From the NCBI GenBank assembly GCA_013001695.1, contig JABDMC010000349.1, positions 1-43,469 of the forward strand: a stretch of DNA of 43,469 nucleotides, in the 5' to 3' direction. The notes under the pieces are model-generated. The model was not told the DNA's origin, made no database searches, and worked only from the letters and a program-made list of their open reading frames with translations. The stretch comes from Akkermansiaceae bacterium. GTDB lineage: Bacteria; Verrucomicrobiota; Verrucomicrobiia; Verrucomicrobiales; Akkermansiaceae. Positions 28 through 19,191 of this stretch are shown piece by piece; the first letter of the stretch is position 1, and every line of letters begins with the position of its first letter. The position numbers were made by a program, and so were the translations under genes.

Positions 28-2602
<2,575 letters not shown>

Positions 2603-3031
2603 TCACCGATCACCGGCCACCGCAGGTGGCAGGAGCAGCCGATGGAATCGTCTGAAAACCAGCGCTCCTGCCAGGGCGCCGAGGACGTCGGCGAGCCAGT
2701 CGGCGGGGTCGTTGCCGGTGCGTTCGGGGGTCCATGACTGGTGCCATTCGTCGAGGGCGCCGACGGCGGCGAGGATGATGACGACGAGGAGGACGAGGGT
2801 AGGCCAGTGGAAGGAAATTCCGGGCCGGTAGCGCAAGAGGAAGAGGGCGGGGCTGAGGAGGCCGGCGCCGCCGAAGAAGTAGCCGAAGTGGAGGACCTTA
2901 TCGAGTCCCGGGATCTCGGGGCCTCCGGTGGTGATGAGGGCCATGGAGGAGAGGGCCCAGAGGGCGAGGAACCAGGCGAGGAAGGAGGAGAGCCAGAAGT
3001 AGGGTGAGTGCGCTACGCGGGGAACGGACAT
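2603..3031 (-). CDS. VanZ-like membrane protein
   Basis: A 142-residue integral membrane protein of the VanZ-like family, whose molecular function is generally unknown (VanZ itself gives low-level teicoplanin resistance). Four hydrophobic segments are visible: SSFLAWFLALWALSSMALI, the segment after LDKVLHFGYFFGGAGLL, LVLLVVIILAAVGAL and WLADVLGALAGALVF. The family signatures are the DKxxHFxxF stretch and DEWHQSWTPERTGNDPADW, where an acidic residue and an aromatic/His cluster sit before the last helix. The start ATG is at MSVPRVAHSPYFW. It stands alone between repeat-rich DNA and a toxin-antitoxin pair; no glycopeptide-resistance genes are nearby. Confidence 0.9.
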   Translation of the reverse strand: MSVPRVAHSPYFWLSSFLAWFLALWALSSMALITTGGPEIPGLDKVLHFGYFFGGAGLLSPALFLLRYRPGISFHWPTLVLLVVIILAAVGALDEWHQSWTPERTGNDPADWLADVLGALAGALVFRRFHRLLLPPAVAGDR

Positions 3032-3145
3032 GGGGGCGGTAGACGGTGGACGGTGGGAAGGGCCGGAGGGGACTCGTCTCCGGGAAGAGGAGCGGCATGG
3101 GCCGGGCCAACTGTCTACAGTCTACTGCCTACGGTCTACCGACCC

Positions 3146-3421
3146 TCACTCCGTCTTGCGGACCTCGTCTTCGAGGCGTTCCGCGAGCCACTGTTTCATC
3201 ATCGACTGGTAGTTGAGGAAGCGGGAGCGGGCCATGCGCTTGATGCGGGAGAGCATGCGCGGGTCGAAGCGGAGCGTGATGGTGGTGGATTCGCGGGAAT
3301 CGGGCGCGTGCTCGGATCCCTTCATCAGGGAGGAATCGAGCTCGTGGCCGAGCCAGAACTTGGCCTCCGCCTCTTCATCCTCGAATTCCGGGATCTCGGT
3401 CCACTGGGTGATGGTCTTCAT
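3146..3421 (-). CDS. BrnA/CopG-type antitoxin
   Basis: A 91-residue ribbon-helix-helix protein and the likely antitoxin of the preceding BrnT-like toxin. The N-terminal half carries the W..IPEF.DEEAEAKFW pattern typical of CopG-like antitoxins paired with BrnT. The C-terminal half is the DNA-binding part: a beta strand (STTITLRFD) followed by two helices (PRMLSRIKRMARS and YQSMMKQWLAERLEDE). In known pairs the antitoxin dimer neutralises the toxin and represses the operon. The gene begins 9 nt after the toxin stop, so the order is toxin then antitoxin, as in brnTA. The symbol is left blank because the DNA-binding part could also be called CopG family. Confidence 0.85.
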   Translation of the reverse strand: MKTITQWTEIPEFEDEEAEAKFWLGHELDSSLMKGSEHAPDSRESTTITLRFDPRMLSRIKRMARSRFLNYQSMMKQWLAERLEDEVRKTE

Positions 3422-3430
3422 GGCAGGGGC

Positions 3431-3709
3431 TTACTTGAAGGAGGCGTACTTGCGGTTGTAGAACTTCTCCTCGCCGTCGGTCATGTCGCGGGCCGCGATG
3501 ATGCGGATCTTCTTCCCGTCGGACCAGAAGCACAGGAAGAGGTAGCGGTCGGAGACGGTGCGGCCGAGGGCGTAGAAGCGGGCCTCGCCGTCGTCGCGGT
3601 CATTGTCCGGGAGGAGGCGCACGGCGAAGGGATCCTCGAGGGCCTCCTCGATCTCCTTGGGCTTGGTGGCCTTGAGGTCAAAGTGGACGTCCAGCAGGTC
3701 GAGTTCCAT
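3431..3709 (-). CDS. brnT: BrnT-family toxin
   Basis: A 92-residue protein of the BrnT family, RelE-fold ribonucleases that stop translation by cutting RNA. The family layout is visible: an N-terminal strand with acidic residues, a central LEDPFAVRLLPD segment, GRTVSDRYLFLCFWSDGKKIRIIAARDMTDGEEKFY matching the family's V.F......RIISAR.A...E...Y core in shorter blocks, and a basic end. The RIIAARDMT stretch carries the conserved Arg and the ARxx motif. The start ATG gives MELDLLDVHFDL. It is the first gene of a two-gene minus-strand operon with the antitoxin. The ~70 bp up to the S8 protease stop would hold the promoter. Confidence 0.9.
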   Translation of the reverse strand: MELDLLDVHFDLKATKPKEIEEALEDPFAVRLLPDNDRDDGEARFYALGRTVSDRYLFLCFWSDGKKIRIIAARDMTDGEEKFYNRKYASFK

Positions 3710-3778
3710 GAAACTTAAGGGAAATTAACGAATAAGGGGGCTCGCCACAATGAAATACGAAGGGCGGGGGGCAAGCGC

Positions 3779-4543
3779 TTATGCCACGGGGGGTTCCGCG
3801 GTGTGGCGGAGGGCGGCCTTGGCGAGCAGGGGGTGCAGGCCGGGGTGGAGGGTGAGGATGCGGGCGAGGAGGGCCGCCACCCGGGGGGCGGCAAAGCTGC
3901 TGCCGACGAGCTTGCGGGTCCCGCCGCCGGGCCACAGGGCGGAATCGTCCTCGCCGCGGGTGGCGAACTCGATGAGTCCGCCGCCGGCGCGGTAGAGGCC
4001 GGGGCGCCCGTCGGGATCGGCCCCGACGCCGATGACGGTGGGGAAGTGGGCCGGCCACTCGGCGGTCTGGAATCCGGTATTGGACCCCGCCGCGACGATG
4101 TGCACCCCGCGGAGATAGAGGGCGTCGATCCATGACTTGTAGACGGCGGCATCCTGGGGGCGGGCCGGGGCGCCGAAGGAGCACTGCACGATGTGGTAGC
4201 CGCGATGGGCGGCCTGGCGGATCCCCTCGCGGATGATGGCGGCGCGGGACTCCTTGAAGTGGCCGAGGACGCGGATGGAGCCGAGGGTGGCGGCGGGAGC
4301 GATCTGGTGGATGATGCCCGCCACCGCGGTGCCGTGGCCGAAGACGTCGCCGTCGCCGGATTCCCGGAGGGAGACGCGTCCCCCCTCGGAGAGGATGGCG
4401 AGGTCGTCGTCGAAGTCGGCGTGGGCGAGCCCGGGGTGGGTGAGGTCGATCCCGGAGTCGAGGATGGCGATGCGCACGCCCTTGCCGTCGCCGGCCTCGA
4501 GGGCGTGCCGGGCATCCTCCGGGGTGATCCAAGGTTCAGCCAT
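3779..4543 (-). CDS. Cytoplasmic S8 (subtilisin-like) serine protease
   Basis: A 254-residue peptidase S8 domain with nothing else attached. The triad is complete: Asp29 in AILDSGIDLTHPG, His70 in FGHGTAVAGII, Ser216 in GSSFAAPRVAALLA, with the oxyanion Asn155 in AAGSNTG. There is no signal peptide, propeptide or membrane segment, so it should act in the cytoplasm and not need pro-domain maturation. The ATG at 4543 (MAEPWITPEDARHALEAGDG) is chosen over an upstream in-frame start because the extra 50 residues are low-complexity and overlap the GAF gene. It is the third gene of a tight operon: small protein A, GAF protein (7 nt gap), protease. Its substrate is unknown; small protein A or the sigma circuit next door are only guesses. 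Confidence 0.93.
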   Translation of the reverse strand: MAEPWITPEDARHALEAGDGKGVRIAILDSGIDLTHPGLAHADFDDDLAILSEGGRVSLRESGDGDVFGHGTAVAGIIHQIAPAATLGSIRVLGHFKESRAAIIREGIRQAAHRGYHIVQCSFGAPARPQDAAVYKSWIDALYLRGVHIVAAGSNTGFQTAEWPAHFPTVIGVGADPDGRPGLYRAGGGLIEFATRGEDDSALWPGGGTRKLVGSSFAAPRVAALLARILTLHPGLHPLLAKAALRHTAEPPVA

Positions 4544-4550
4544 GCGGTCT

Positions 4551-5069
4551 TCAGGACTGCTGGTGCAAGGCGGCCTCGAGAAGCCGGCCGATGCAGGCCG
4601 CGGCGAAGTCGAACTCTTCGAGGTCGGCGGGGCGGAATTCCTTCGGCTCCTCGCCGGAACCCGCCGGGCGGGTGTGGACGCAGGTGATGACACCGCAGAT
4701 CTCGCCGTTGGTGACCACCGGGACCGCGATCATGGCGTCGGTGGTGATTCCGAGCTGCGAGTCGAGAAGGGAGCTATGCTGGGGATTGCTGGAGATGGCA
4801 TTCTCACAGATATTTTGTCCGGAGGCATAGACATAGGAAACGATGCCCTGGTTCAGGGGCTGGAGGAAGTGGCCCACGAAGTGTTCGGCGTGGGGGCCGG
4901 TCCCGAGGACGGGATCGAGGTGTTCGCTGGCGGCCAGCCAGAGGGCGGTGTTGTGGGCCCCGACGTGGCGGCCCGACCTGGCGAGGAGTTCACGGGTGAG
5001 GCCGCCCGTGATATCGTCGATGAGACCCGCGCGGGCCCACTCGGCGGGCGGCAGGTTGGAGCTGTTCAT
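4551..5069 (-). CDS. GAF-domain protein
   Basis: A 172-residue protein made almost entirely of one GAF domain (about residues 25-168). Visible blocks are an N-terminal helix (IDDITGGLTRELLARSGRH), the strand NTALWLAASE, the segment GIVSYVYASGQNICENAIS, DAMIAVPVVTNGEICGVITCVH (the two central GAF strands) and a C-terminal helix FAAACIGRLLEAAL. GAF domains bind small ligands such as cyclic nucleotides or transmit redox and light signals; the ligand here cannot be told. Position between small protein A (9 nt gap) and the S8 protease (7 nt gap) suggests that it senses a signal for the protease. A link to cAMP from the nearby cyclase is possible but not shown by the sequence. Confidence 0.88.
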   Translation of the reverse strand: MNSSNLPPAEWARAGLIDDITGGLTRELLARSGRHVGAHNTALWLAASEHLDPVLGTGPHAEHFVGHFLQPLNQGIVSYVYASGQNICENAISSNPQHSSLLDSQLGITTDAMIAVPVVTNGEICGVITCVHTRPAGSGEEPKEFRPADLEEFDFAAACIGRLLEAALHQQS

Positions 5070-5078
5070 GCCGGCTGT

Positions 5079-5297
5079 TTACTCTCCATTCAGAAGGGTG
5101 GCCAGCATCTCCATGGCGTATTCGTTGCCACGCAATTCGCGATACAATGCGAGCAACTCGTCGTCGCTCAATCCGCCCGCCACGAAGCGCCGAATGAGAT
5201 CGTCCAGTTCCGCCGGAACCTCTTCCTCGCCACGCGATCGCACCGGCCCCGGAAACGACGCCAGGAACCGGCAGATGGTGCCAAAGTTGCTTTCCAT
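5079..5297 (-). CDS. Small acidic helical protein A (paralog of protein B)
   Basis: A 72-residue cysteine-poor protein of no family I can name. ATG at 5297 is chosen over an upstream TTG because MESNFGTICRFLASF then lines up with the paralog at 8687-8899 (MDNYQTIHQFLQAF). The two share the pattern TIxxFLxxF at the N-terminus and FxAGxLSDxE..L.RELxxNExAMExLAxLL at the C-terminus. The second half (VAGGLSDDELLALYRELRGN) has the outline of the helical part of zinc-finger-like anti-sigma domains (a G-L-S-x-E turn followed by an amphipathic helix), but the zinc ligands are absent. It starts the operon with the GAF protein and the S8 protease. Anti-sigma or adaptor function is inference only. Confidence 0.75.
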   Translation of the reverse strand: MESNFGTICRFLASFPGPVRSRGEEEVPAELDDLIRRFVAGGLSDDELLALYRELRGNEYAMEMLATLLNGE

Positions 5298-5309
5298 GAT
5301 TGCGAACAA

Positions 5310-5337
5310 ATCATAAAGACGACGAATCAGATATCAA
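5310..5337 (-). promoter_or_regulatory. Candidate sigma-70-type promoter before small protein A
   Basis: On the minus strand TTGATA (plus 5332-5337) and TATGAT (plus 5310-5315) are separated by 16 bp. Each differs from the consensus hexamer by one base. They sit in an AT-rich patch that stands out in this GC-rich locus. Transcription would begin only about 6 nt before the ATG at 5297, so the mRNA would be almost leaderless; the match may still be chance. Confidence 0.4.
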
Positions 5338-5460
5338 TATATTCAGTAATCCTTAATCAATTCGTGTGAGTATCCGCCGCGACAAGGACTATGGATCCGG
5401 TCCCGCCCGATCAGGATCAGCAGGTTGCGCAGATCATCACGGCGGGGACGCCGGGCGTCT

Positions 5461-6471
5461 TCAGGAGCGCCGCTTGAACTTCTGCTTCTTCTGGCGGTCG
5501 TCGCCGCCGCCCGGATCACCACCGCCGATGTCGCCGCCACCGGTATCGCCGCCACCGGTATCGCCGCCGCCGGTATCGCCGCCGCCGGTATCGCCGCCGC
5601 CGGTATCGCCGCCGCCGGTGTCCCCGCCGCCGGTGTCCCCGCCGCCGGTGTCCCCGCCGGGATCATTTCCGCCAGCGGAGGTGTCGTTGGCCTGGCGACG
5701 GACGAAGATCTGGTCGCTGACGATATCGCGGCCGCGGGGCGTGCCGTCCTTGGCGGGGGAGCGATTGATGTCGCGCTCCGCAGGGACGCGGGTCAGGAAT
5801 CCGTCGCGCTTGAGGGTGTCCTGGTGCTCGATGGCCTCGCGGATCTTGTCGAGGGCGTGATTCGGGAGCGGCCCGAAGGTATCGGGATCGACGAGTCCGG
5901 AGGTCTTCATGAGGCGCCGGAGGTCGACTTTGACCGGCTTGGGAAGCTTGCGGTCGTTGGCCCGGAAGACGGCCATTTCGCCGGCGCGCACGGTGACCTT
6001 GTCGCGCCGGTTCTCATTCGGGAAGAGGTCGAGGGAGCCTTCCAGCACGATGGCCTTCATCCACTTCTTGGCGAAGTATTCCAGCATGATGGTGGTCCCG
6101 GTGACCGAGGCGGTCACGGTGGGGGTGTTGATGCGGGCCCCGCCGGCGTTCCGGGGAACCTGCAGGAGGAGCGTCCCCTGGGTGAGACTGAGGTCGCGGG
6201 ACCCTTCCTCGAAACTGAAGACGGAATTGGCGCCGAGGCGGGTCAGGGTCTGATCCTGGAAGCGCAGCTCGGAGCGGGAGCGGCGTCCCGTCTGGAGGGA
6301 CGTGCGGCCGTGCACGAGGTCGCCGGGGCTGGCCTTGCGGGCGGCGCGGTCGGGCCGGTAAATGCGGACGTCATTGATGACCTTGGTGACGTTCGCGGAC
6401 TCCAGCGAATTCGCCACCCCGAGAGGCGTGGCGAGACCGATGGCCAGAGAAATGGCGGCAAGACGTTTCAT
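5461..6471 (-). CDS. Exported FecR-domain protein 1 with Gly-Asp repeat tail
   Basis: About 336 residues. It has a Sec signal peptide (MKRLAAISLAIGLATPLGVA), then a FecR-type beta domain (from SLESANVTKVINDVRIY through GDLVHGRTSLQTG, RSRSELRFQDQTLTRLGAN, SVTGTTIMLEYF and IVLEGSLDLFP), a conserved PKPVKVDLRRLMKTSGL segment, and a long disordered tail with eleven GGGD-type pentads before a basic end (QKKQKFKRRS). Classical FecR has a cytoplasmic anti-sigma part and a membrane helix; neither is present, so this protein should be wholly periplasmic or surface-attached. An in-frame ATG 12 nt upstream (6483) is the alternative start. It follows OMP1 by 38-50 nt and is probably co-transcribed with it. 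It is a paralog of the FecR proteins at 7571 and 9727. Confidence 0.9.
   Translation of the reverse strand: MKRLAAISLAIGLATPLGVANSLESANVTKVINDVRIYRPDRAARKASPGDLVHGRTSLQTGRRSRSELRFQDQTLTRLGANSVFSFEEGSRDLSLTQGTLLLQVPRNAGGARINTPTVTASVTGTTIMLEYFAKKWMKAIVLEGSLDLFPNENRRDKVTVRAGEMAVFRANDRKLPKPVKVDLRRLMKTSGLVDPDTFGPLPNHALDKIREAIEHQDTLKRDGFLTRVPAERDINRSPAKDGTPRGRDIVSDQIFVRRQANDTSAGGNDPGGDTGGGDTGGGDTGGGDTGGGDTGGGDTGGGDTGGGDTGGGDIGGGDPGGGDDRQKKQKFKRRS
5501..5663 (-). repeat. 15-bp tandem repeat encoding GGGDT
   Basis: A 15-bp unit is repeated in frame at the 3' end of FecR1, giving eight DT pentads and single variants ending in DI, DP and DD. The units fall into sub-blocks by third-base and A/G differences (GGTATC versus GGTGTC on the plus strand), which suggests successive expansion. 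Length change in steps of 15 bp keeps the frame, so the tail could vary between strains. Confidence 0.92.
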
Positions 6472-6521
6472 GGGGGGGAACATGACCTTGACGGTTGAGA
6501 TGCAGTGATATGCGGAGAACT

Positions 6522-7484
6522 TCAGAACTTGGCGTGGAGGCCGAGGCCGAGGCCCGCCTGCCACGCCTCGTAGTCGCTGAGGCCCCCGGGCCGGTTGGAG
6601 TCGTTCCGGCCGTAGAGGATCGAGGCGTAGAGCTTGGCGTGCTCGCCGAGGCGGTAGTTCAGGTCGAGCCCGCCGTAGCTGTACCAGTCGCGGCGGCTGG
6701 AATGGCGGTATTCGCGGAAGGACGTCTTGGCGTAGGCGCTGAACTGGAGCCGATTGGTGAGGCGGCGGTAGTAGCCGAGGCGGGCCGCGTACTGGCGGCG
6801 TTCGAGGCGGGAGGGGGTGGCGTCGAGATCGATGCGCGCCTGGGTCGAGAGGGTGACGCTGTGCTCCGAGGTCTGGTAGAGGGTCTTGTAGGCCCCGAGG
6901 CGGATGCGGTGGAAGCGGTTCGTGAGGTGGTCGTCGGCGCTCGTCAACGGGAAGCCCGGGTCGTCGGCATTCACGTAGAGGAACTCGTAGCGGCTGTAGA
7001 CGGTGATGTCGGCGAGGTCGGGGAGATTGCGGATGAGGCCGATCCCGAGCTCGCTCGATTCGAAGTCGAGGCCCTCGGAATCGTAGAGGTAGGCGTCCTG
7101 GTAGGCGAAGGCGTCGAGGAAGAGGTTTTCGCCGAGGCGTTGCTTCCACCGGGCGCCGAGGCTGCCGACGAAGAACCAGCCGTCATCGGGGTCGCTGGAA
7201 TCGGCGCCGATGTTGTCCGACCAGAAGAGGTGGGTTTCGGCGCGGACCTTGAGGGGGGCGCGCTTCCACTGGGGGCGGAGGATGACCTGCTCGCCGAGAT
7301 CGCTGTCGCCGCTGCTGGCCGGGGCGTGGGTGTCTTCGTCGCCGACGTAGTAGTTCGGGGCGTAGTAGCGGGGGTCGTCGTCGGCGGTGCTGCCGCCTTC
7401 AAGACGCTCCTCGGGCGTGGCCGCCATTCCGGGGAGGATGGCTGCCCACCAGATCGCGACCGTAAGGGGAACGGGGAAACGCAT
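6522..7484 (-). CDS. Outer-membrane beta-barrel protein OMP1
   Basis: A 320-residue exported protein. The signal peptide is MRFPVPLTVAIWWAAILPGMA, followed by a short acidic linker and the box GDSDLGEQVILRPQ. From there to the end it alternates polar and aromatic residues in beta-strand fashion (KVRAETHLFWSDNIGAD, NLFLDAFAYQDAYLYD, ITVYSRYEFLYVNAD, LTNRFHRIRLGAYKTL, KLYASILYGRNDSN) and it ends in Phe, as expected for Bam-dependent barrels. The number of strands looks like 12 to 16. It shares the GDSDLGEQ, FWSDNI, RYEFLYV.AD.P and HLTNRFHR.R.GA.K boxes with OMP2. There is no TonB box or plug. The FecR1 gene follows directly. The ligand or cargo is unknown. Confidence 0.85.
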   Translation of the reverse strand: MRFPVPLTVAIWWAAILPGMAATPEERLEGGSTADDDPRYYAPNYYVGDEDTHAPASSGDSDLGEQVILRPQWKRAPLKVRAETHLFWSDNIGADSSDPDDGWFFVGSLGARWKQRLGENLFLDAFAYQDAYLYDSEGLDFESSELGIGLIRNLPDLADITVYSRYEFLYVNADDPGFPLTSADDHLTNRFHRIRLGAYKTLYQTSEHSVTLSTQARIDLDATPSRLERRQYAARLGYYRRLTNRLQFSAYAKTSFREYRHSSRRDWYSYGGLDLNYRLGEHAKLYASILYGRNDSNRPGGLSDYEAWQAGLGLGLHAKF

Positions 7485-7570
7485 GGAAGGGTGGACGGTC
7501 CGGAGACCGTTAACTTTCCTTAGTTATTAACAGGACTTTGGGGTCTTTGGCAAGACCGATTCTGGGCGAC

Positions 7571-8437
7571 CTACCTGCGATTGAAGCGGGGGAGGTTGGT
7601 GAAGATCCTGGGGCCCTCCTCCTTGGGGGGGGAGTCGTCGGCCCGGTCGGTGACGACCTCGCGGGCCCCCGGGGGGTCCGCCGAGGACGGGTCGGCGTCC
7701 TCGCGCTGCGGGCCGGCCGAGGCCTGCGGCCCGGGATTCGTGAGGACCTCCTGCTTTTCGATGGTGGCGGAAATCTTGTCGGTGGCCTCCTTCGGGAGGG
7801 CCCCGAAGGTCTCGGGGTTGGCGAGGGCGGAGGTCTTCATGAGGCGCTTCACGTCGACCTTCACCGGCTTGGGGACGAAGGGCTCGTTGGGGCGGAAGAC
7901 CGCCATTTCGCCCGCCTTGATGCGGACCCGGCGCTTGCCGTTCTGCCGGGTCCGGACCTCGAGGCTGCCTTCCAGCACGATCATTTTCGCCCACTGGTTG
8001 GCGAAATACTCCATCATGATGGTCGTCCCGGTGACCGAGGCGGTCACGGTGGGCATGTTGATGCGGGCCCCGCCGGAATTCTTCGGGACCTGGAGGAGGA
8101 GGGTGCCCTGCTCGAGGTGCAGCTCGCGGGTGCCGGCCTCGAAGCTGAAGACCGAATTGGCGCCGAGCCGCGTGAGGGTCTGGTCCTCGAAGCGCAGTTC
8201 GGACCGCGACCGGCGGCCGGTCTGGACGGAGGTGCGGCCCTGGACGAGATCCCCGGGGCGCGCCTTGCGCATCGCGGAGTCCGGCCGGTAGATCCGCACG
8301 TCATTGACGACCTTGGTGACGTGGGCGGCTTCAAAACTGCCAGCCGTGGCGACCGGCGGGACGAGGAGGCCCAGCAGCGCGGCGGCCGCAAGGGCGGTCC
8401 CTCGCGGCGGAGCGAATGAGAGGGAGATTGGGGGCAT
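7571..8437 (-). CDS. Exported FecR-domain protein 2
   Basis: A 288-residue paralog of FecR1 and FecR3. The N-terminus carries a hydrophobic export signal (TALAAAALLGLLVPPVATAG) after a 15-residue polar lead. The FecR core follows with the same blocks as its paralogs: HVTKVVNDVRIYRPD, GDLVQGRTSVQTGRRSR, FEDQTLTRLGANSVFSFE, TASVTGTTIMMEYFAN, IVLEGSLEVR, then KPVKVDVKRLMKTSALA. The C-terminal ~70 residues are proline- and charge-rich and probably disordered, without the Gly-Asp repeats of FecR1. It has its own AT-rich upstream region with a terminator-like hairpin separating it from small protein B. OMP1 follows after 86 bp, so FecR2, OMP1 and FecR1 may form one unit. Confidence 0.9.
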   Translation of the reverse strand: MPPISLSFAPPRGTALAAAALLGLLVPPVATAGSFEAAHVTKVVNDVRIYRPDSAMRKARPGDLVQGRTSVQTGRRSRSELRFEDQTLTRLGANSVFSFEAGTRELHLEQGTLLLQVPKNSGGARINMPTVTASVTGTTIMMEYFANQWAKMIVLEGSLEVRTRQNGKRRVRIKAGEMAVFRPNEPFVPKPVKVDVKRLMKTSALANPETFGALPKEATDKISATIEKQEVLTNPGPQASAGPQREDADPSSADPPGAREVVTDRADDSPPKEEGPRIFTNLPRFNRR

Positions 8438-8533
8438 GGCGAAGGAAGGGTGAAAACCGGCCCCATTTTATTAACATTTTCTGACAATTAACGCAAGCCT
8501 GGGAGAGCGGAAAATCGGTTGCCCCTGGAAGCC

Positions 8534-8563
8534 AAAAACCCCCGCCCGGCGGAGCCGGAGGGG
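8534..8563 (-). terminator. Probable intrinsic terminator after small protein B
   Basis: On the minus strand a GC hairpin with core CCGGC-TCC-GCCGG, flanked by C-rich and G-rich arms, is followed by five T. It lies about 125 nt downstream of the small protein B stop and about 100 nt upstream of FecR2, so it would separate the sigma/protein B transcript from FecR2. Confidence 0.5.
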
Positions 8564-8686
8564 AGATTGAGGAGGAATGCGGAGTCAGTTGGAAGGGTGG
8601 CGGAGAAGCCCGGGCAACCCGTCCATCCGGGGGGCAATGGGGTGGTCGAAGGGGACCCGGGCTCGGGGGGGGAGGAAGAAAAGTCG

Positions 8687-8899
8687 TTAGTTGCGAAGCA
8701 GGCTCGCGAGGCGCTCCATGGCGTTTTCGTTGGCGAGGAGCTCGCGGGAGAGGTCGCTGACCTGCTCGTCGGTGAGGTTTCCGGCGGCGAAGTTCTTGAT
8801 GTCCTTCTCGAGATCGGGCGTGACGGCGTCGGTGCTGCGGCCGCTGATTTCGGGTGCGAAGGCTTGGAGGAATTGGTGAATCGTTTGGTAGTTGTCCAT
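8687..8899 (-). CDS. Small acidic helical protein B (paralog of protein A)
   Basis: A 70-residue protein, cysteine-free, of unknown family. It aligns end to end with small protein A (5079-5297): TIHQFLQAF at the start, then FAAGNLTDEQVSDLSRELL and NENAMERLASLL at the end. Predicted structure is three or four short helices. It lies 75 nt downstream of the ECF-like sigma gene on the same strand, the place where anti-sigma genes usually sit, and its C-terminal half has the outline of the helical part of anti-sigma zinc-finger domains without the zinc ligands. No membrane segment is present, so if it is a sigma regulator it acts in the cytoplasm. That role is inferred from position and shape only. 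Confidence 0.78.
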   Translation of the reverse strand: MDNYQTIHQFLQAFAPEISGRSTDAVTPDLEKDIKNFAAGNLTDEQVSDLSRELLANENAMERLASLLRN

Positions 8900-8974
8900 G
8901 ATCGAAGGGGCGAGGTTCAGCTTCTCGACGGGTCAGATGGGGCTTTATTCAAAGGAATATGAAGTATTTCGGGC

Positions 8975-9661
8975 TCAGGCCCGGCTTCCCACGAGGAAAT
9001 CGGTGGAATTCCGGCAGAGGGCGATGAAATCCTCCCAGTTGAGTTCGATCCAGGGGTCGGCCTTCTTGAGCTCGGCGAGGGTTTTCTCGCGGATTTCCTC
9101 CATGACGCCGGTGATGGCGCGGCTGACCTTCGACTGGCTCCACCCGAGCGAGGCCGCGAGGGTTTCCTGCCGGACGCCGTGGATCGACACGAGCCGCATG
9201 AACATGAGATCGCGCGGGTTGCACTCGCGGAAGGCGTTCACGAGGGCGTCGCGCAGGAGGCCGACGAGGTGGTCGTCGGTTTCATCCGAGAGCGATTCGC
9301 CCTCGAGGAGGTCGAATTCGTCGGTGGGAGCGCCCTCCAGGCCCCGTTCCGGGAGGTTTCCCTGGAACTTCTGGCGGCGCTTGAGGTCGATGAGGCGGTT
9401 GATGGCGGCCCGCGAGAGGAAGGCCCGCAGCGTCCCGCCGCCGTTGTAGGAGAGCAGGAGCGGCTTCTTGCCGTCGCGGCCCGCGAAACAGTCCGCAAAG
9501 AGGTCGGCGGTGATGTCCTGGGCCTCGGTATGCGATGCCCCCCGCCGCGCCAGGACCGACTGCAACCATGTGATCGTGTCCTTGGAGCTGATCAGCTCAC
9601 AGGCTTCCTTGTTGCCGGAGAGGGCCCTCTCGACGAGATCGAGATCGTCTTCGTGTTCCAT
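8975..9661 (-). CDS. ECF-like RNA polymerase sigma factor
   Basis: A 228-residue sigma-70-family protein with regions 2 and 4 only. Region 2 is at about 15-98: a first helix pair, TEAQDITADLFADCFAG (the core-binding DAxDixQevF-type helix) and TLRAFLSRAAINRLIDLKRR (-10 recognition). Region 4 is at about 148-198, with the helix-turn-helix VRQETLAASLGWSQSKVSRAI that reads the -35 element. The linker (about 100-140) is acidic. After region 4 there is an extra ~30-residue tail (KKADPWIELNWEDFIALCRN), longer than in minimal ECF factors and possibly regulatory. Small protein B follows on the same strand and FecR3 precedes it. By analogy with FecI it may drive the FecR and OMP genes around it, but no shared promoter motif is clear enough to prove this. 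Confidence 0.9.
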   Translation of the reverse strand: MEHEDDLDLVERALSGNKEACELISSKDTITWLQSVLARRGASHTEAQDITADLFADCFAGRDGKKPLLLSYNGGGTLRAFLSRAAINRLIDLKRRQKFQGNLPERGLEGAPTDEFDLLEGESLSDETDDHLVGLLRDALVNAFRECNPRDLMFMRLVSIHGVRQETLAASLGWSQSKVSRAITGVMEEIREKTLAELKKADPWIELNWEDFIALCRNSTDFLVGSRA

Positions 9662-9726
9662 TGAGTGGGGGGATCATTGGAAAGACGGGGCGAGGAATCA
9701 AGGGCAGGGGACCGCCAATGCGCATA

Positions 9727-10536
9727 TTATGGGCCGCCCGGGGAGTTCGGCTCGTCGGGAAAGTTGGGCAGGCGGACGGGAAAATCGCGGCCGAGGTCGC
9801 GGATCCGGCGCTGATTGACCTCGGCCCGCGAGCCGTGGCGCGGGTTGAGGACGTTGGTGCGGACGAGGCGTCCGGCGGCGATCTGGCGCTGCTGGGCGGC
9901 GATGGCGTTGGCGATGGCCTCCGCCGCGGCGGCCGGGAGGGCCCCGAAGAGGCGGGCGCTGGCCAGGGGGGAGGTCTCGACGTTGCGCTTCAGGTCGATG
10001 TCGACCGGCTGGGGGACCCGGCGGTCGTTGGCCCGCATGACCAGCATCTGGCCGGCGAGGATCGTGACGCGGCGGCCGACGGTGTTGAGGAAGGCCTCGA
10101 GCCGCCCCTCGAGGACGATGATCTTGACCCACTTGCCGGCGAAGAACTCCATCAGGATGGTGGTCCCGGTGATGGAGGCCGTGACGGTCGCGGTCCGGAT
10201 GCGGGCCCCGCCGGCGTTCCTGGGAACCTGGAGGAGCAGGGTGCCCTGCTCGAGTTGGAGGTCGCGGGTTCCCTGCGCGAAGCTGAAGATGGAATTCGCG
10301 CCGAGGCGGGTGATGGTGTTGTCCTGGAAGCGCAGTTCGGAGCGGGACCGGCGGCCGGTGTGCAGGGAGTTGCGGCCGCGGATGACGTCGCCGGTGCTGG
10401 CGGTGCGCCCGTCCGCGCCGGGGCTGTAGATGCGGACATCATTGATGACGCGCGTCACGGTGGCGGATTGCAGGCTGGCGGCGTGGGTGAACGGCGCGAG
10501 GGCCATTCCGGCAAGGAGCAGGAGGTGGGATTTCAT
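9727..10536 (-). CDS. Exported FecR-domain protein 3
   Basis: About 269 residues. ATG at 10536 (MKSHLLLLAGMALAPFTHAAS, a clean signal peptide) is preferred to an in-frame TTG at 10551. The FecR core matches its two paralogs block by block: TVTRVINDVRIYSPG, GDVIRGRNSLHTGRRSR, FQDNTITRLGANSIFSF, TASITGTTILMEFFAGK, IVLEGRLEAFLN, GQMLVMRANDRRVPQPVDI. The tail is short and rich in Arg, Asn and Pro. There is no transmembrane helix after the signal and no cytoplasmic anti-sigma region. It lies between OMP2 (57 bp upstream) and the sigma gene (65 bp downstream), so OMP2, FecR3, sigma and protein B could be one transcript. Confidence 0.9.
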   Translation of the reverse strand: MKSHLLLLAGMALAPFTHAASLQSATVTRVINDVRIYSPGADGRTASTGDVIRGRNSLHTGRRSRSELRFQDNTITRLGANSIFSFAQGTRDLQLEQGTLLLQVPRNAGGARIRTATVTASITGTTILMEFFAGKWVKIIVLEGRLEAFLNTVGRRVTILAGQMLVMRANDRRVPQPVDIDLKRNVETSPLASARLFGALPAAAAEAIANAIAAQQRQIAAGRLVRTNVLNPRHGSRAEVNQRRIRDLGRDFPVRLPNFPDEPNSPGGP

Positions 10537-10593
10537 GGCAAGGTGGGTCAACAGATTGACGAGTGGTGAGGGTGAATTATGCGTGGTGGGAGC

Positions 10594-11562
10594 TTAGAAA
10601 GCGAGGTGGAGTCCGGCCCCGATGCCGCCTTGGATTGCTTCGTAGTCGTTAATGCCTCCAAACGAATTCGAGTCGTTTTTCCCGTAGAGGAGGGAGGCGA
10701 AGAGGCGGGTCCGGTCGGTGAGCAGGTAGGTGACTTCGAGCCCGGTGGCGTAGTGCCAGTCCTCCCGCGGGCCGTTCTGGTAGTCGAGGTAGGTGGCGCG
10801 CGCGATGGCCGTCAGCTTGAGCTTGTCGGTGGCATGGAAGGTGTAGCCCGTGCGCAGGCCGAACTCGTGCCGCTCGAGGCGGGCCGGGGAGGCGTCGAGG
10901 TCGAAGAGGGCCTCGGTGCCGAGGTAGGCGGTGTGCCGCGGCGCGCTGAGGAAGACCTTGTGCGCGCCGAAGCGCAGGCGGTGGAAGCGGTTCGTGAGAT
11001 GCGACTTCGGGCTGAAGAAGCTGATGGCCGGGTTGTCGGCGTGGACGTAGAGAAACTCGTAGCGGCCGAAGAGGAGAAGGTCGCCCCACTCGGGGAAGAT
11101 CTTGACGAGGCCGACGCCCGCCTCGGTCGATTCGAAATCGAGCGGGCCGCGGTCGTAGCGGTAGACGTCCTCGAACACGAAGGTGTCGACGAAGAGGTTG
11201 TCGCCGATGCGCGGGCGCCAGGTCAGCCCGCCGCGGTTCGCCCAGAACCAGCCGTCGGTTTCGAGGGCCGGGGTGGCGGCCGCGATGTTGTCCGACCAGA
11301 AGACGCCCGTGTCGGCCTCGAGCCGGATCGGGGCGCGGCGGGGGGCGCGGGCCAGGATGAGCTGCTCGCCGAGGTCGGAGTCTCCCGCGCTTTCGGGCGC
11401 GAAGCGCTTCTCCTCGTCGAGGTCCTGGTCGGCGTAGGGCGCGGGATCGAAGACGCTGGATCCGCCGAGGGCCCGCTCCACCGGGGAAAACGCGTCGACG
11501 GCCTGCAGCGCCGGGAGCGGTCCCAGGCAGAGGAAGGTGGTGAACAAGAGTGCTTTGGGCAT
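10594..11562 (-). CDS. Outer-membrane beta-barrel protein OMP2
   Basis: A 322-residue exported protein, paralog of OMP1. The start ATG at 11562 gives a signal peptide (MPKALLFTTFLCLGPLPALQA); the much longer open frame upstream is the antisense of the cyclase gene. Shared blocks with OMP1 are AGDSDLGEQLILARA, GVFWSDNIAA, DNLFVDTFVFEDVYRYD, LDFESTEAGVGLVK, FGRYEFLYVHADNP, HLTNRFHRLRFGAHKV and LFASLLYGKNDSN. The C-terminus is LHLAF, ending in Phe. No plug domain or TonB box is visible. It diverges from the CHASE2 cyclase gene over only 57 bp, so the two promoters must overlap or lie very close, which ties the cyclase to this locus. Confidence 0.87.
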   Translation of the reverse strand: MPKALLFTTFLCLGPLPALQAVDAFSPVERALGGSSVFDPAPYADQDLDEEKRFAPESAGDSDLGEQLILARAPRRAPIRLEADTGVFWSDNIAAATPALETDGWFWANRGGLTWRPRIGDNLFVDTFVFEDVYRYDRGPLDFESTEAGVGLVKIFPEWGDLLLFGRYEFLYVHADNPAISFFSPKSHLTNRFHRLRFGAHKVFLSAPRHTAYLGTEALFDLDASPARLERHEFGLRTGYTFHATDKLKLTAIARATYLDYQNGPREDWHYATGLEVTYLLTDRTRLFASLLYGKNDSNSFGGINDYEAIQGGIGAGLHLAF

Positions 11563-11619
11563 GGAAGCGACGGATGCTTTTGTTAGACTCCTTCCCATGC
11601 TAAGTATGTCCGGGCGCTG

Positions 11620-13794
11620 ATGGCAAGCCAAGGGACCACCGATGAATCCGGCCTGTCGCGGCTTTCGTGGCTCGTCATGCTCGGAGCGGCTGGGGTGACG
11701 GCGGCCCTCTGGGGCGGCTGGCTCCTGTTTTTCAGCACCCTGGCGTGGGAGGCCGACCGGCAGTACCAGGACCTCCTGACCACGCAGTTGAGGCCCACGG
11801 CGGAGCGGGCCGACCTCCTCTGCCTCGGGCTGGATGAAGAGAGCCTCTCGCTGTCCTCGGTGGACGAGGAGGTCATCGAGGCCTCGGAGGTGCTGCCGTT
11901 GATGCGGGGCCGCTACCCGTGGAACCGCAGGGTCTGGGCCGCGGTGGTGGACCGCCTCGGCGAGGCCGGCGCGCAGGTCATCATCCTCGACTTCATATTC
12001 ACCGAGCCATCCGGCGATGCGGGGGCGGACCGGATGCTGGCGGAGGCCATCGGGCGGCATCGCGACAAGGTGGTGCTGGCGTCGCTCTGGGGACCGGTCC
12101 GCGCGCCGGACGGGCAGGAGATGATCGTCATGCGCGAGCCCCTCGAGGAGTTCCTCGGGCCGCTCGATGACGAGACCGCCATCGGCTACACGAATTTCTG
12201 GATGGATCCCGAGGACGCCTCGCTGATCCGGACCGTGAACTACCGCATCACGGCGCGCGAGGCCAACGGGCTGAAGCCGGTCGTCGGGGAGCCGCGCTAC
12301 GATTCGCTGGCGGGCGCCGCGGCGCGGAAGCTCGGGGTGGACCCGCCGCCCGGCGAGTGGCGGTTGCGCTTCGCCGCCGAGCGGAAGGCCGTGCAGGGCG
12401 ACGGGGAACGGGCCGCGGGGGACGGCGAGAGGCAGACCCGCTACCTGTCGGTGGACAGCTACGAGCCGCGGAGTCTCTACGAGCTGTTCGTCCCCGACCT
12501 GTGGCAGATGCGCTACGGGGGCGGCGACGGCCTCGCGGGGAAGGTGGTCCTGGTGGGACCCACCGCCCCCCGCTTCCAGGACAATCACCGCACCCCGTCC
12601 GGCCACCTTCTCGGGCCGCAATTGCACCTGCAGGCGCTCGGCTGCCTGCTGGAAGACAGCTTCTGGAAGGAGCCGCCGCCGTGGGCGGAGTGGGCCCTGC
12701 TCGCCGGGCTGGCGCTGGCGGGGATGGTGCTGGTGAGGATGGTGCGCAATCCCGTGGCCTTGCTCGGGGCGGTGCTCGCCCTCGCGGCGGCGCTGGTTCT
12801 CGGCTGCGGGGTTCTCGCCGACCGGACCGGGGTGCTCTTCACCGGGTTCCCGGGGCTGCTCGCCCTCCTGGGCGTCACCATCAGCGGGGGCGCGGTGGAA
12901 TTTTTCGTGGAGCGCGCGCGGCGCCGGCGCCTCCACCGGCACCTGCAGCGGTCGGTCTCGGCGGACGTGGCGGACCAGATGGTGCGGTCCCCCGGCGGGT
13001 ATTTCGAGATGGCGCGCGGCCGGCGCCGCAAGGTGGTGGTGCTCTTTTCGGATGTGCGCGGGTTCACGGCGCGCTCCGAGCAGACCGCCCCGGAAGAGCT
13101 CGTCGAGCAGCTCAACGAGTATTTCAGCCGCATGGTGCGGATCGTGTTTTCGCGGGGCGGCACGCTGGACAAGTTCATCGGGGACGCCGTGATGGCGACG
13201 TGGGGCGGGTTGAGCGACGAGCCCTACGATGATCTCGTGCAGTCCGCGGTGTCCGCCGCCGCCGAGATGCAGAAGGCCCTCGAGGAACTGAACGCCGATT
13301 GGGAGCGCCGGGGGCTGCAGCCCTTCGAGGCGGGCATCGGCATCCACTTCGGCGAGGCGGTGGTCGGCGAGATCGGCTCGGACGAGCGCAGCGATTTCAC
13401 CGCCATCGGCGATGCCGTGAACGTGGCCTCCCGCATCGAAGGGCTCACCAAGCACCTGCAGGTGCCGGTCCTGATGACCGGCGAGGCCGCCGCCAAGCTC
13501 GGCCGCGACCATTCGGTGCTGGGGCTCGGGCGCTTCGGGGTGGCCGGCCGGAAGGGCGTCCTCGAGCTCTACACCCTCGCCAACGGGATCGGCTCGCAGG
13601 ACACCCTGCGCCTCGGGTCCGCCCTGGAACGCATCGAGCGCGGCGAGTGGGACCGCGCCGCGGAAGCGCTCGAGTCGCTCGGCGACGACACCCACCTCGA
13701 GGGCCTCGTCGACCTCTACCTCGGCGAGATCGAGAAGGCGCGGTCCGCGGGCGCCGGGGAGTGGAACGGGGTGGTCAGACTGGGGACCAAGTGA
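11620..13794 (+). CDS. CHASE2-domain class III adenylate cyclase
   Basis: A 724-residue membrane sensor that should make cAMP. Order: one N-terminal membrane helix (about 17-42), a periplasmic CHASE2 domain (about 45-345, with RYPWNRRVWAAVVDRLGEAG and VIILDFIF as signature), three membrane helices (about 356-437) and a cytoplasmic cyclase domain (about 465-650). Catalytic parts are complete: metal Asp478 in LFSDVRGFT and Asp522 in DKFIGDAVMA, purine-selecting Lys in LDKF and Thr in DFTAIGD (adenylate type), and transition-state Asn and Arg in NVASRIE. The C-terminal ~70 residues are an extra helical part. CHASE2 ligands are unknown. Its start lies 57 bp from divergent OMP2, and its last 20 bp overlap the end of the convergent DUF3307 gene. 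Confidence 0.95.
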   Translation: MASQGTTDESGLSRLSWLVMLGAAGVTAALWGGWLLFFSTLAWEADRQYQDLLTTQLRPTAERADLLCLGLDEESLSLSSVDEEVIEASEVLPLMRGRYPWNRRVWAAVVDRLGEAGAQVIILDFIFTEPSGDAGADRMLAEAIGRHRDKVVLASLWGPVRAPDGQEMIVMREPLEEFLGPLDDETAIGYTNFWMDPEDASLIRTVNYRITAREANGLKPVVGEPRYDSLAGAAARKLGVDPPPGEWRLRFAAERKAVQGDGERAAGDGERQTRYLSVDSYEPRSLYELFVPDLWQMRYGGGDGLAGKVVLVGPTAPRFQDNHRTPSGHLLGPQLHLQALGCLLEDSFWKEPPPWAEWALLAGLALAGMVLVRMVRNPVALLGAVLALAAALVLGCGVLADRTGVLFTGFPGLLALLGVTISGGAVEFFVERARRRRLHRHLQRSVSADVADQMVRSPGGYFEMARGRRRKVVVLFSDVRGFTARSEQTAPEELVEQLNEYFSRMVRIVFSRGGTLDKFIGDAVMATWGGLSDEPYDDLVQSAVSAAAEMQKALEELNADWERRGLQPFEAGIGIHFGEAVVGEIGSDERSDFTAIGDAVNVASRIEGLTKHLQVPVLMTGEAAAKLGRDHSVLGLGRFGVAGRKGVLELYTLANGIGSQDTLRLGSALERIERGEWDRAAEALESLGDDTHLEGLVDLYLGEIEKARSAGAGEWNGVVRLGTK

Positions 13795-14200
13795 CCCAGG
13801 CGTAGCCCTGGTAGAGGAGGACGGCGTAGACGAGCTTGCACAGGATGTGCAGGGCCTGGTCGACCTCGAAGGAGATCTTTTCCTCGCCCTTGACGAGATC
13901 GATGACGGTGTGGAGGACCCACTCGATGAGGCCGAGGATGACCGAGCCGGTGAGGAGCCACACCGCCCCGGCGTGGATGACGGCGTGGGCGAGGAGGGCG
14001 TTGCCCCAGAGCCCCCACGGGCGCCCGTTCGGGAACGAGGCCGAGAGGTCGCCGCGCCGGGTCTTCGCCTTGGCGAGGAAGTCCGACTGGAGGGCGTAGT
14101 CGCCGAGGGCGTGCCCGACGATCATGGCGAACAGGACGACGAGCGCGGCGCCGGCATTGCCCGCAACCTGGGCGGCATCTGGGAGAGTGGCGAGCAGCAT
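13775..14200 (-). CDS. DUF3307 membrane protein
   Basis: A 141-residue protein with about four membrane helices, of the DUF3307 family (function unknown). The family hallmark is HALGDYALQSDFLAKAKTRR near the N-terminus, followed by LLAHAVIHAGAVWLL and LIEWVLHTVIDLVKG with conserved His and Asp in the helices; these suggest a metal site or membrane-embedded enzyme. The gene lies 15 nt after the cyclic-nucleotide-binding-domain gene and is probably translated from the same mRNA. Its 3' end overlaps the convergent cyclase gene by 20 bp. Confidence 0.88.
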   Translation of the reverse strand: MLLATLPDAAQVAGNAGAALVVLFAMIVGHALGDYALQSDFLAKAKTRRGDLSASFPNGRPWGLWGNALLAHAVIHAGAVWLLTGSVILGLIEWVLHTVIDLVKGEEKISFEVDQALHILCKLVYAVLLYQGYAWVTWSPV

Positions 14201-14215
14201 GCGGGTGGGAGGCGC

Positions 14216-14698
14216 CTATTGGTAGAGATAGCGCAAGGCGACCTGCTGTTCCTTGGCGGTGAGTTTCTCGGTGGTGTTGCGCAGGCGGCCGCAGAGCACC
14301 CCCAGCATGCCGAGGAGGAGGCGGCCCGCGGCTTCGGGGTAGGAGGCGAGAAAGGCGTCGATATCCTCGCGGCTGGCCCGCCAGACCTGGCAGAACTCCT
14401 GGGCGTGGACGGTGGCGCTGGCCTTGCCGGGATCGAAGACGCTGACTTCCCCGATGGTTTCGCCGGGCTCGGCGCGGGAGATGAGGGTGCGCTTGCCGTC
14501 GACGTCGGTGGTGACGTGGAGCACCCCGGAGATCACGAAGTAGAGCGAGTTCTGGGGGCTGCCCTCCTCGATGAGCTGCGCATCCGCCTGCACGGGAAGA
14601 AACTCGCCGTAGTCGCTGAGGAGGCGGCGGTCGGCGTCGTCGAGAGCGGCGAGGATGCCGAGGGCGGGAAGTTCAGGCTTGTTGAATTCGGTGCTCAT
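14216..14698 (-). CDS. Stand-alone cyclic-nucleotide-binding-domain protein
   Basis: A 160-residue protein consisting of a CRP-type cNMP-binding domain (about 15-125) and a C-terminal helical part, without DNA-binding helix-turn-helix. The beta-roll is clear (FLPVQADAQLIEEGSPQNSLYFVISGVLHV), and the phosphate-binding cassette GETIGEVSVFDPGKASATV has the conserved Glu84. In CRP the next key residue is an Arg before Ser-Ala; here it is Ala93 (KASATV). The domain may thus bind cAMP weakly or not at all, or bind another ligand. It lies one gene away from the adenylate cyclase, which makes a cAMP-response role tempting. It could also act with the ABC operon upstream (139 bp gap) or with DUF3307. 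Confidence 0.9.
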   Translation of the reverse strand: MSTEFNKPELPALGILAALDDADRRLLSDYGEFLPVQADAQLIEEGSPQNSLYFVISGVLHVTTDVDGKRTLISRAEPGETIGEVSVFDPGKASATVHAQEFCQVWRASREDIDAFLASYPEAAGRLLLGMLGVLCGRLRNTTEKLTAKEQQVALRYLYQ

Positions 14699-14837
14699 GG
14701 TGACGCGGGAGACAGGGCAGTTTCCGGCAGGATGGCCGGTGAAGGAAGCGGAATCACACCGGGCCCCGGCGGATCGGGAAGAATCCGGGAGGATCTCGCG
14801 GGTTCCGCCGGGAAATCGGGGGAGGGCGGGCCGGGGC

Positions 14838-16754
14838 CTACCGGTCTTCGAGGAGTTCCACCGCGAGGCGCTGGGCGGCGGGGAGGTCGAGGACGAAGTA
14901 TTCCGGATCCCCCGAGAGGCGGCCGTAGAAGAACCGGTTCTGGCGCGATTTGGTGGCGCGGGCGACCTCGAGGGTGACGGGGGTGATGCCGGCCGGTTCC
15001 CCGCGATCGTTGAGGCGCTTGTAGAGGACGGTGAGCGCGTAGTCGGGGTCGGCGAGGGCGGCCCGGGCCTCGGGGGCGTCGGTCCCGAGCCAGCTGGCGA
15101 CCCGCAGGCTTTCCAGGAAGGTCAGGAAGTTGTTGGCCCGCTGGACATTGAGCGAAGCGGTGACGTCCTCGCCGCCATGACGCGCGGTCCATTCCTGGGC
15201 GATGAAGTTGTAGGTGAGGTTGAGCGGCTCGCGGCCGCGGCGTTCGATGCGCAGGCCGGTGAGGTCGACGACGTTGAACGGCCACAGGAGCGAATCGCGC
15301 CACTCGTGTGGCTGGGTCGGGATGTGCGCGAAGGTGCTCCCCTCGATCTCCATCACGGACGGGGCGCCGCCCCGCATGGCGAAGTAGCGGTTCTCGCCGT
15401 CCCGCCCGAAGAGCAACTCGATGCCGGCGCCGTCGCCCCCTTCGAGGAGGACGCGCTTCTCCGGGGCGTCGAGGCCGAAGGGCGCAAGGTCGGTGGCGGC
15501 GTCGGAGGCGAACCCCTTGACGCGGTCGCGCGTGATGGCGGTCAGGAGCTTCGCGACGGTGAGCTCGTTGGCGAGCGATTCGCGGGGGCCGTAGTTCACC
15601 AGCCAGCGGGGCCGGCCGTCGGTGCGGGCCGTCCCGAGCTTCACGATGAGCGGGCGGGGGAGGTGGGTGGCGTCGAGGGTGATGGTCCGGAGGGCCGCGA
15701 TGTTGAGGTCCGCGAGGGTCTTGCTGCGGAGGTCGTTGATGGACAAGGCGAGCTGCGAGAGCGTGGGGCGGCCATTCACGGGGGTGAGGGGAAACTCGAA
15801 CACCGCGGGGCGCCCCGCGGTCTTGCCGAGGAGGGAGGTCGCTTCGGGCGTGGCGGGCGGTTCGACCGTCAGGACCGCGGCCGGAACGGCCTCCCCGTCG
15901 GCGTTGAAGACCTGCAGGTCGACGGTCAGGTAGGGTTCGTCGGGGTCGAGGGTGGTGACCGAGCCGGGGTCGTGCACCGTGGCGGCCTCGAGGTTCGTGA
16001 GGGTCGTCAGGAGGCTCTTCACCGCCGCGGGGTCGGTGCGCAGCTCGAGCGGTTTCGTGATTCTCCAGCCGGCCTCGGGCGTGCTCCGCGAGAGGAGGAG
16101 TTCCCCGGTGCCGCTGCTGATCGCGATGGAGGCGAGCTGCGCCGGGTTGAAGAGGAAGGGGCGATGGTCGCGCAGGACGCCGAAGCCCTTCTCGAGGAGG
16201 CTGCGCCGCACCTCGGGGCCGGAGCACACGTAGACGTAGTCGCCGCTCCCCTCGTCACCGGGGCGGACGAAGACCGTCTCGTAGAGGAGGTTGTTCCTGG
16301 TGTCGAAGCGGTGCCAGGCGGTGCGCCTCCCGAGGGCGAAGCGCGCCACGCGGCGGCCGGAGGTGTTGATGAGCTCGATGTCGAAGTGGCCGGCGCGAAA
16401 CCCGCATTCCTCGGGCGTGGCGGAGCGCGCCGGGATGATGTCCTCGATGCGGAGGTTCCGGGCGAAGTCCACGAGGCCCTCGAGGTGGCGGTAGTCGGCG
16501 CGGTCCTCGGCCGGTTCCTCCATCAGCCAGCGGCCGCCGCGCTTGCGGAACGAGGCCCGGTCGCCGGAGCTGTTGGTGAGGTTGAGCCGCACGATGTTCC
16601 CGGCGTCGAAGTCGTAGAGGAGGTCCTCCTTGGCGAGGGGCGGCTTCCCGAAGACGGCGCTCAGGTCCTGGTCCCGGATCTGGACGGCCGCGAGCGATCC
16701 GAAGACGGCGGCCAGGACCACGAGGAGGACGGTGGTGGCAACGAGGGATCGCAT
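14838..16754 (-). CDS. DUF4340-domain protein of the Gld-type ABC operon
   Basis: A 638-residue protein with one N-terminal membrane helix (LVATTVLLVVLAAVFGSLAAV) and a large extracytoplasmic part. The repeated beta-rich blocks (YDFDAGNIVRLNLTNSSGDRA, RWLMEEPAEDRADYRHLEGL, then LVDFARNLRIEDII) are the DUF4340 pattern; two or more copies follow along the chain (GWRITKPLELRTDPAAVKSL, PLNLTYNFIAQEWTARHG). Proteins of this kind are regularly encoded after GldG-like genes in Verrucomicrobia, Planctomycetes and relatives. The gene starts 5 nt after the GldG stop and is last in the four-gene transporter operon. It probably forms the periplasmic part of the complex; the substrate is unknown. Confidence 0.88.
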   Translation of the reverse strand: MRSLVATTVLLVVLAAVFGSLAAVQIRDQDLSAVFGKPPLAKEDLLYDFDAGNIVRLNLTNSSGDRASFRKRGGRWLMEEPAEDRADYRHLEGLVDFARNLRIEDIIPARSATPEECGFRAGHFDIELINTSGRRVARFALGRRTAWHRFDTRNNLLYETVFVRPGDEGSGDYVYVCSGPEVRRSLLEKGFGVLRDHRPFLFNPAQLASIAISSGTGELLLSRSTPEAGWRITKPLELRTDPAAVKSLLTTLTNLEAATVHDPGSVTTLDPDEPYLTVDLQVFNADGEAVPAAVLTVEPPATPEATSLLGKTAGRPAVFEFPLTPVNGRPTLSQLALSINDLRSKTLADLNIAALRTITLDATHLPRPLIVKLGTARTDGRPRWLVNYGPRESLANELTVAKLLTAITRDRVKGFASDAATDLAPFGLDAPEKRVLLEGGDGAGIELLFGRDGENRYFAMRGGAPSVMEIEGSTFAHIPTQPHEWRDSLLWPFNVVDLTGLRIERRGREPLNLTYNFIAQEWTARHGGEDVTASLNVQRANNFLTFLESLRVASWLGTDAPEARAALADPDYALTVLYKRLNDRGEPAGITPVTLEVARATKSRQNRFFYGRLSGDPEYFVLDLPAAQRLAVELLEDR

Positions 16755-16759
16755 GGGAA

Positions 16760-18370: not shown

Positions 18371-18374
18371 GCCG

Positions 18375-19127: not shown

Positions 19128-19191
19128 GGGGCGGGGTTCGGGGAGCGGGGTTCGGGGTGGGGGGATTCCGGTCGGTGGGACGGCCTCGCCG

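Follow-up and report, generated by a model that had tools for sequence, protein, structure and literature searches.

A sigma factor, small protein, GAF and S8 protease module beside CHASE2, FecR and barrel genes in an Akkermansiaceae genome

Genes at the locus

The window (the whole stretch of DNA analysed, 43,469 nt) is contig C141 (JABDMC010000349.1) of an Akkermansiaceae metagenome-assembled genome (MAG; assembly GCA_013001695.1) of 5.13 Mb in 399 contigs. Between positions 3779 and 14698 it carries two gene sets side by side. The core module consists of a divergent extracytoplasmic function (ECF) sigma factor, helical small proteins of about 70 aa, a GAF protein and an S8 protease, and the envelope module of a CHASE2 cyclase, FecR-domain proteins and exported beta-barrels (OMP1 and OMP2). 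The core module, which recurs in related genomes, is the new element of the locus; the CHASE2-FecR-barrel set is of an already known type. Genes were determined by codon-usage gene calling and translation, and coordinates are given after start choice, as follows.

3779-4543, minus: S8 (subtilisin-fold) protease, 254 aa; Pfam Peptidase_S8 5e-25; core module
4551-5069, minus: single-GAF protein, 172 aa; Pfam GAF 1e-9; core module
5079-5297, minus: small protein A, putative anti-sigma, 72 aa; paralog of small protein B by alignment, profile search 2e-26; core module
5461-6483, minus: FecR1, exported FecR-domain protein with (GGGDT)n tail; Pfam FecR 2e-11; envelope module
6522-7484, minus: OMP1, exported beta-barrel of ~320 aa; weak OMP_b-brl match (0.006), 45% identical to OMP2; envelope module
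7571-8437, minus: FecR2, exported FecR-domain protein; Pfam FecR 6e-12; envelope module
8687-8899, minus: small protein B, putative anti-sigma, 70 aa, directly downstream of sigma; alignment with small protein A; core module
8975-9661, minus: divergent ECF sigma factor; PDB profile match to ECF sigmas, structure match to SigE/AlgU; core module
9727-10536, minus: FecR3, exported FecR-domain protein; Pfam FecR 1e-10; envelope module
10594-11562, minus: OMP2, exported beta-barrel of ~320 aa; weak BBP2_2 match (0.0025), ortholog in genome G026; envelope module
11563-11619, no strand: divergent intergenic region between OMP2 and CHASE2, exactly 57 bp from the sequence
11620-13794, plus: CHASE2-transmembrane class III adenylate/guanylate cyclase; CHASE2 4e-29 and Guanylate_cyc 5e-20; envelope module
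13775-14200, minus: DUF3307 protein, encoded between CHASE2 and the gene for the cNMP-binding protein
14216-14698, minus: stand-alone cyclic-nucleotide-binding (cNMP-binding) protein, possible accessory; cNMP_binding 2e-19

The gene list, order and strands of the original prediction, which read these genes as a single envelope-signalling system, were all recovered by gene calling and domain matches. The tight spacing it described is there as well, with gaps of 9 nt between small protein A and GAF, 7 nt between GAF and S8 and 57 bp between OMP2 and CHASE2, and so is the paralogy, with identities of 59% (FecR2 and FecR1), 49% (FecR2 and FecR3), 45% (OMP1 and OMP2) and 41% (small proteins A and B). 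The last gene of the interval, which had been left unnamed, encodes the cNMP-binding protein. The layout is duplicated, as OMP2-FecR3-sigma-small protein B is followed by FecR2 and by OMP1-FecR1-small protein A, all upstream of GAF-S8.

The core module in related genomes

It is close to certain that the sigma factor, the helical small protein, the GAF protein and the S8 protease form a unit, as had been proposed from the window: the four genes recur across relatives, and one relative fuses three of them. The set was found in several families (loci L021, L023, L028, L029 and L030) and in another copy on contig C142 of the window genome. The usual order is sigma-small-GAF-S8; elsewhere GAF-S8 lies on the opposite strand. 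At L021, from a Verrucomicrobia MAG that is the nearest named relative, and at L023, the four genes are followed by BrnT, a CopG-type antitoxin, a VanZ-like gene and a DNA ligase, the same synteny as in the window. Loci L028 and L029, from another family, hold sigma-small-GAF-S8 as a tight set without envelope genes. At L030 GAF-S8 converges on sigma-small, on C142 GAF-S8 and sigma-small lie on opposite strands, and L025 has sigma-small-GAF. At L026 and L027 sigma stands alone beside SGNH-hydrolase-like and pseudouridine-synthase genes, and small-GAF-S8 is found elsewhere in those genomes.

The order was surveyed in 190 genomes with profiles built from the relatives' loci, and the best candidates per genome were scored under strict E-values. 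The GAF profile gave 93 matches, 84 of which have S8 within 300 bp, in 83 cases downstream on the same strand. Strong sigma matches numbered 55 in 52 genomes; GAF or S8 lies within 2.5 kb for 23 and within 30 kb for 17 more, and among the other 15 there are several whose contig is short or ends nearby. The 57 strong small-protein matches lie within 400 bp downstream of sigma and/or within 300 bp upstream of GAF, with the exception of one looser locus. Sigma is present in 52 genomes, the small protein in 54 and both in 51 (Fisher 2e-41, without phylogenetic correction).

The strongest single evidence that sigma, small protein and GAF act as one machine is a natural fusion of 466 aa in genome G024. 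It carries sigma at 10-210 (1.7e-25), the small protein at 217-276 (13-15 bits, compared with 10.9 for the top of about 2000 shuffles) and GAF at 308-458 (2e-30). Genome G138 encodes a fusion of sigma and GAF in which the sigma part is weaker.

Some observations count against so close a unit. The co-occurrence tests ignore shared ancestry. In one genus of family f2, sigma is 9-22 kb away from small-GAF-S8; the S8 gene is on another contig in G026 and does not adjoin GAF in G039.

In the sampled genomes and at the thresholds used, the core seems to be restricted to a single order of Verrucomicrobiota. In a phylum-wide sample of 338 genomes the S8 subfamily was present in five, all from the order of the window. 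A contig scan with a single sigma sequence as the query found one locus only. No description of the four-gene core was found in the open-licence literature.

Parts of the core module

The sigma factor (8975-9661) has sigma regions 2 and 4 only and is homologous to ECF sigmas. Its domain matches are below the Pfam and NCBIfam cut-offs, with Myxococcales gmx1 and the generic ECF superfamily as the best NCBIfam models, and the family profile matched SigH, SigE and AlgU in PDB over positions 10-211 (1e-8). A structure search with the predicted model placed ECF sigmas first (SigE, AlgU), with a low global template modelling score. A C-terminal extension of ~30 aa is conserved and has the tail PWxxxxWxDF.

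Small protein B was modelled in AlphaFold2, with moderate confidence, as four helices (predicted local distance difference test score 74). Its last three helices overlay the first three of the DdvA anti-sigma domain over 43 aa with a root-mean-square deviation of 2.1 A and 21% identity, at a Z score of only 2.7. The class I anti-sigma domain fold is a three-helix bundle with a sigma2-binding helix (PMC7406223). The small protein model is likewise helical, with a three-helix bundle and one separate helix, but its lone helix lies N-terminally, not C-terminally, and the zinc motif is missing. Like class I anti-sigma factors, the small proteins are encoded and co-inherited with an ECF sigma (51 genomes with both, and the G024 fusion). 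One member of the family gave a VbhA match (2e-4), and two gave GvpK matches.

The best PDB match of the GAF family profile is the cAMP-binding GAF tandem of the cyanobacterial adenylate cyclase CyaB2 (1ykd, 9e-14), followed by the mammalian phosphodiesterases PDE5, PDE2A, PDE6 and PDE10. The nearest solved relatives are thus GAF domains that bind cyclic AMP (cAMP) or cyclic GMP, a kinship that suggests the ligand and does not prove it. The catalytic Asp, His and Ser of the S8 protease, set in subtilisin motifs, are invariant across seven family members, and the protein aligns with mature subtilisin BPN' over nearly its full length. With intact catalytic residues, without a propeptide and with no signal peptide seen, it is likely a cytosolic protease.

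The envelope module

CHASE2, FecR and barrel genes belong together also outside the window, as was first suggested for the locus: FecR lies within 5 kb for at least 54 of 97 CHASE2 matches, with at least 47 divergent, and clusters of CHASE2 cyclases with FecR, TPR and phosphodiesterase genes are described in Campylobacterota (PMC9239204). The window resembles these clusters in having a CHASE2 cyclase by FecR and outer-membrane or TPR proteins, and so does the fusion copy on C142. It differs in that no phosphodiesterase was seen alongside, and in that FecR and barrel are separate, multiplied and flank sigma.

FecR and outer-membrane genes stand beside CHASE2 in the window, on C142 and in G026. 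In G026 the CHASE2 ortholog is 41% identical and has the same divergent arrangement; CHASE2 and OMP-FecR-sigma are laid out as in the window (L024), with small-GAF 4-5 kb further. C142 encodes a 1246-aa fusion of FecR, TPR and a TonB-type barrel (L005 7393-11133) with a CHASE2 cyclase directly after it, ~17 kb from the C142 core; both halves thus recur there, but apart. The parsimonious reading of the ancestry of the window is an order CHASE2 / OMP-FecR-sigma-small-GAF-S8, followed by an old tandem duplication of OMP-FecR-(sigma)-small.

FecR1-3 each have a signal-peptide-like start (read by eye) with the FecR domain directly after it, and no cytoplasmic anti-sigma part. The tail of FecR1 (5461-5690, minus) holds about ten GGGDT-type repeats before a basic end, which FecR2 and FecR3 do not have.

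Coupling of the two modules

Two modules are juxtaposed at the locus, and the core is only sometimes paired with the envelope set. The reading as one system stands insofar as each module is coherent and a looser coupling survives; an obligate single system does not, since relatives split the modules. The original prediction named the presence of these genes at unrelated loci in relatives as what would refute it, and this is largely what was found: only 4 of 109 CHASE2 matches have a strong sigma within 30 kb (those of the window, C142, G026 and G101; 0.36 expected by chance), and G010, a genome of the same genus, has the core without the envelope set. At its locus (L023) the core is followed by a cNMP-binding gene, DUF3307 and then a FecR remnant at the position of FecR3 (41% over 56 aa, 2e-11), with no barrel or CHASE2 at the locus. 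In L021, the 9 kb of contig upstream lack FecR, barrel and CHASE2 genes alike.

A membrane class III cyclase stands by the core in three separate settings. The first is that of the window and G026. The second is G101, where CHASE2-FecR is tail-to-tail with S8-GAF-small. In the third, in seven genomes of one genus in a second family, a HAMP-type membrane cyclase and a barrel-like protein lie ~1.9 kb from GAF; the barrel was called from the appearance of the sequence and has no Pfam match. A Ser/Thr kinase-receiver fusion (L041 1790-3181; L030 5512-6855) is divergent from GAF-S8 in genomes G046 and G112.

Class III cyclases were detected in 50 of the 52 genomes with sigma and in 77 of the 138 others, without phylogenetic correction. 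Genes for cNMP-binding proteins adjoin in the window, in G010 (beside DUF3307) and in G147, where an independent gene follows the small protein.

Proposed mechanism and alternatives

A mechanism is proposed tentatively, at somewhat less than an even chance, in which sigma would be released by proteolysis. The barrel and FecR would report on the outer envelope to CHASE2 and alter cyclase activity, so that the envelope module would feed the core, and the cyclic nucleotide would bind the GAF protein and possibly also the adjacent cNMP-binding protein. The small protein, a putative anti-sigma and protease substrate, would hold sigma until the ligand-loaded GAF protein lets the cytosolic S8 protease cut it, and the freed sigma would then transcribe its targets. 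The cyclic-nucleotide input is the least certain step. The most novel form of this proposal, which is rather doubtful as a whole, is a second-messenger switch independent of CRISPR: the cyclic nucleotide would come from the neighbouring membrane cyclase, and the GAF protein that binds it would turn on the cytosolic subtilase, which would destroy the ~70-aa anti-sigma and set the ECF sigma free.

The Calp system (CalpL-CalpT-CalpS) employs a Lon protease with a SAVED sensor and a cyclic oligoadenylate signal. The analogy is one of working order, from a nucleotide second messenger through a cytosolic protease and an anti-sigma to a released ECF sigma. Lon-SAVED is replaced here by an S8 protease and a separate GAF protein, and no CRISPR genes were seen at the loci read. 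Calp belongs to type III CRISPR (PMC12751052).

If the proposal is right, a cytosolic subtilase with a GAF sensor would join the known modes of ECF sigma control, and the switch would be a cellular counterpart to the CRISPR-linked one. It would also help to explain what FecR and barrel genes beside CHASE2 cyclases may feed, and it raises the testable question of whether GAF and S8 are jointly a ligand-gated protease.

Several results weigh against the proposal. For the anti-sigma role, the structural match of the small protein is below significance (none significant in Foldseek, and DdvA as given above), and ten small proteins had no match to anti-sigma families in Pfam or NCBIfam. For the cyclase input, 105 of the 109 CHASE2 genes have no sigma within 30 kb, and the kinase-receiver in G046 and G112 sits where genomes of the same genus have the HAMP cyclase. 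In G010 (94% complete) sigma-small-GAF-S8 is kept and no class III cyclase was detected; that source of cAMP is therefore not obligatory there, unless it was missed in the MAG. A promoter common to nine genes of the window was not recovered by a bipartite 4+4 search, in which the best count of 3 did not exceed that of shuffles.

These cyclase results, together with the many ligands that GAF domains take, agree with an alternative in which the core is real but responds to something other than a cyclic nucleotide, and two independent modules have mostly incidentally become neighbours in a few lineages. It is judged somewhat unlikely, as cyclase neighbours of differing types recur, the nearest solved GAF domains bind cyclic nucleotides and only ~0.4 CHASE2 pairs are expected by chance. 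The protease could also degrade sigma itself and keep the system off, with GAF and the small protein as an adaptor or brake. Control by proteolysis of sigma is proposed for ECF54, a group whose loci include genes for a subtilase, a carboxypeptidase and CHAT (PMC8999054, section 3.3); the likeness, an ECF sigma linked to a subtilase, is one of genomic context only, and the near-constant small partner and GAF protein set the present loci apart. The conserved C-terminal tail of sigma could then serve as a degradation or docking site. But a dedicated small partner is nearly always there, whereas the ECF54 proposal covers systems without an anti-sigma, and in the G024 fusion sigma would be joined in cis to the machinery that degrades it; degradation of sigma is judged unlikely.

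Far less probable is an anti-phage or conflict role for the core, with the protease, once activated by a ligand, killing or reprogramming the cell. The patchy distribution within the order, a second-messenger-type sensor together with a protease, the adjacent BrnT/CopG-type toxin-antitoxin genes in the window, L021 and L023, and one weak effector-associated-domain match (0.12) would agree with it. PADLOC, however, matched no complete anti-phage system, its matches being limited to the generic subtilase, PycC cyclase and cNMP-domain models; three genomes show the core in stable synteny with LigA and VanZ-like genes, and no mobile-element context was seen. Classical FecA-FecR-FecI surface signalling, to which the original prediction compared the locus, is barely conceivable, although here too an ECF sigma neighbours FecR domains and outer-membrane barrels. 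Membership was rejected on the domain content of FecR1-3, OMP1/2 and sigma, because the defining features fail: the receptor there is TonB-dependent, with a plug and a signalling domain, and OMP1 and OMP2 are ~320 aa long with no TonB-receptor match and only weak OMP_b-brl/BBP2_2 matches; the anti-sigma part N-terminal to the FecR membrane helix is replaced by a signal-peptide-like start; and sigma is not FecI-type, being nearest to the gmx1 and generic ECF models.

Sequence elements and neighbouring genes

No RNA element was found with Rfam over positions 2500-15000 of the window. The 9-mer TGTTAATAA occurs twice in the window, at 7524-7532 and 8468-8476 (minus), upstream of OMP1 and FecR2. 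It is possibly a shared promoter element of these two genes, and two occurrences do not suffice to claim a regulon.

The S8 gene is immediately followed by a BrnT-type toxin and CopG/BrnA-type antitoxin pair (3146-3709, minus); as such a pair also follows S8 in L021 and L023, the synteny is old. On the other side, at 14838-20178 (minus), is an ABC-transporter-like operon of an ATPase, a permease and two large membrane-anchored proteins, gliding-type by appearance, which adjoins the core in L023 too.

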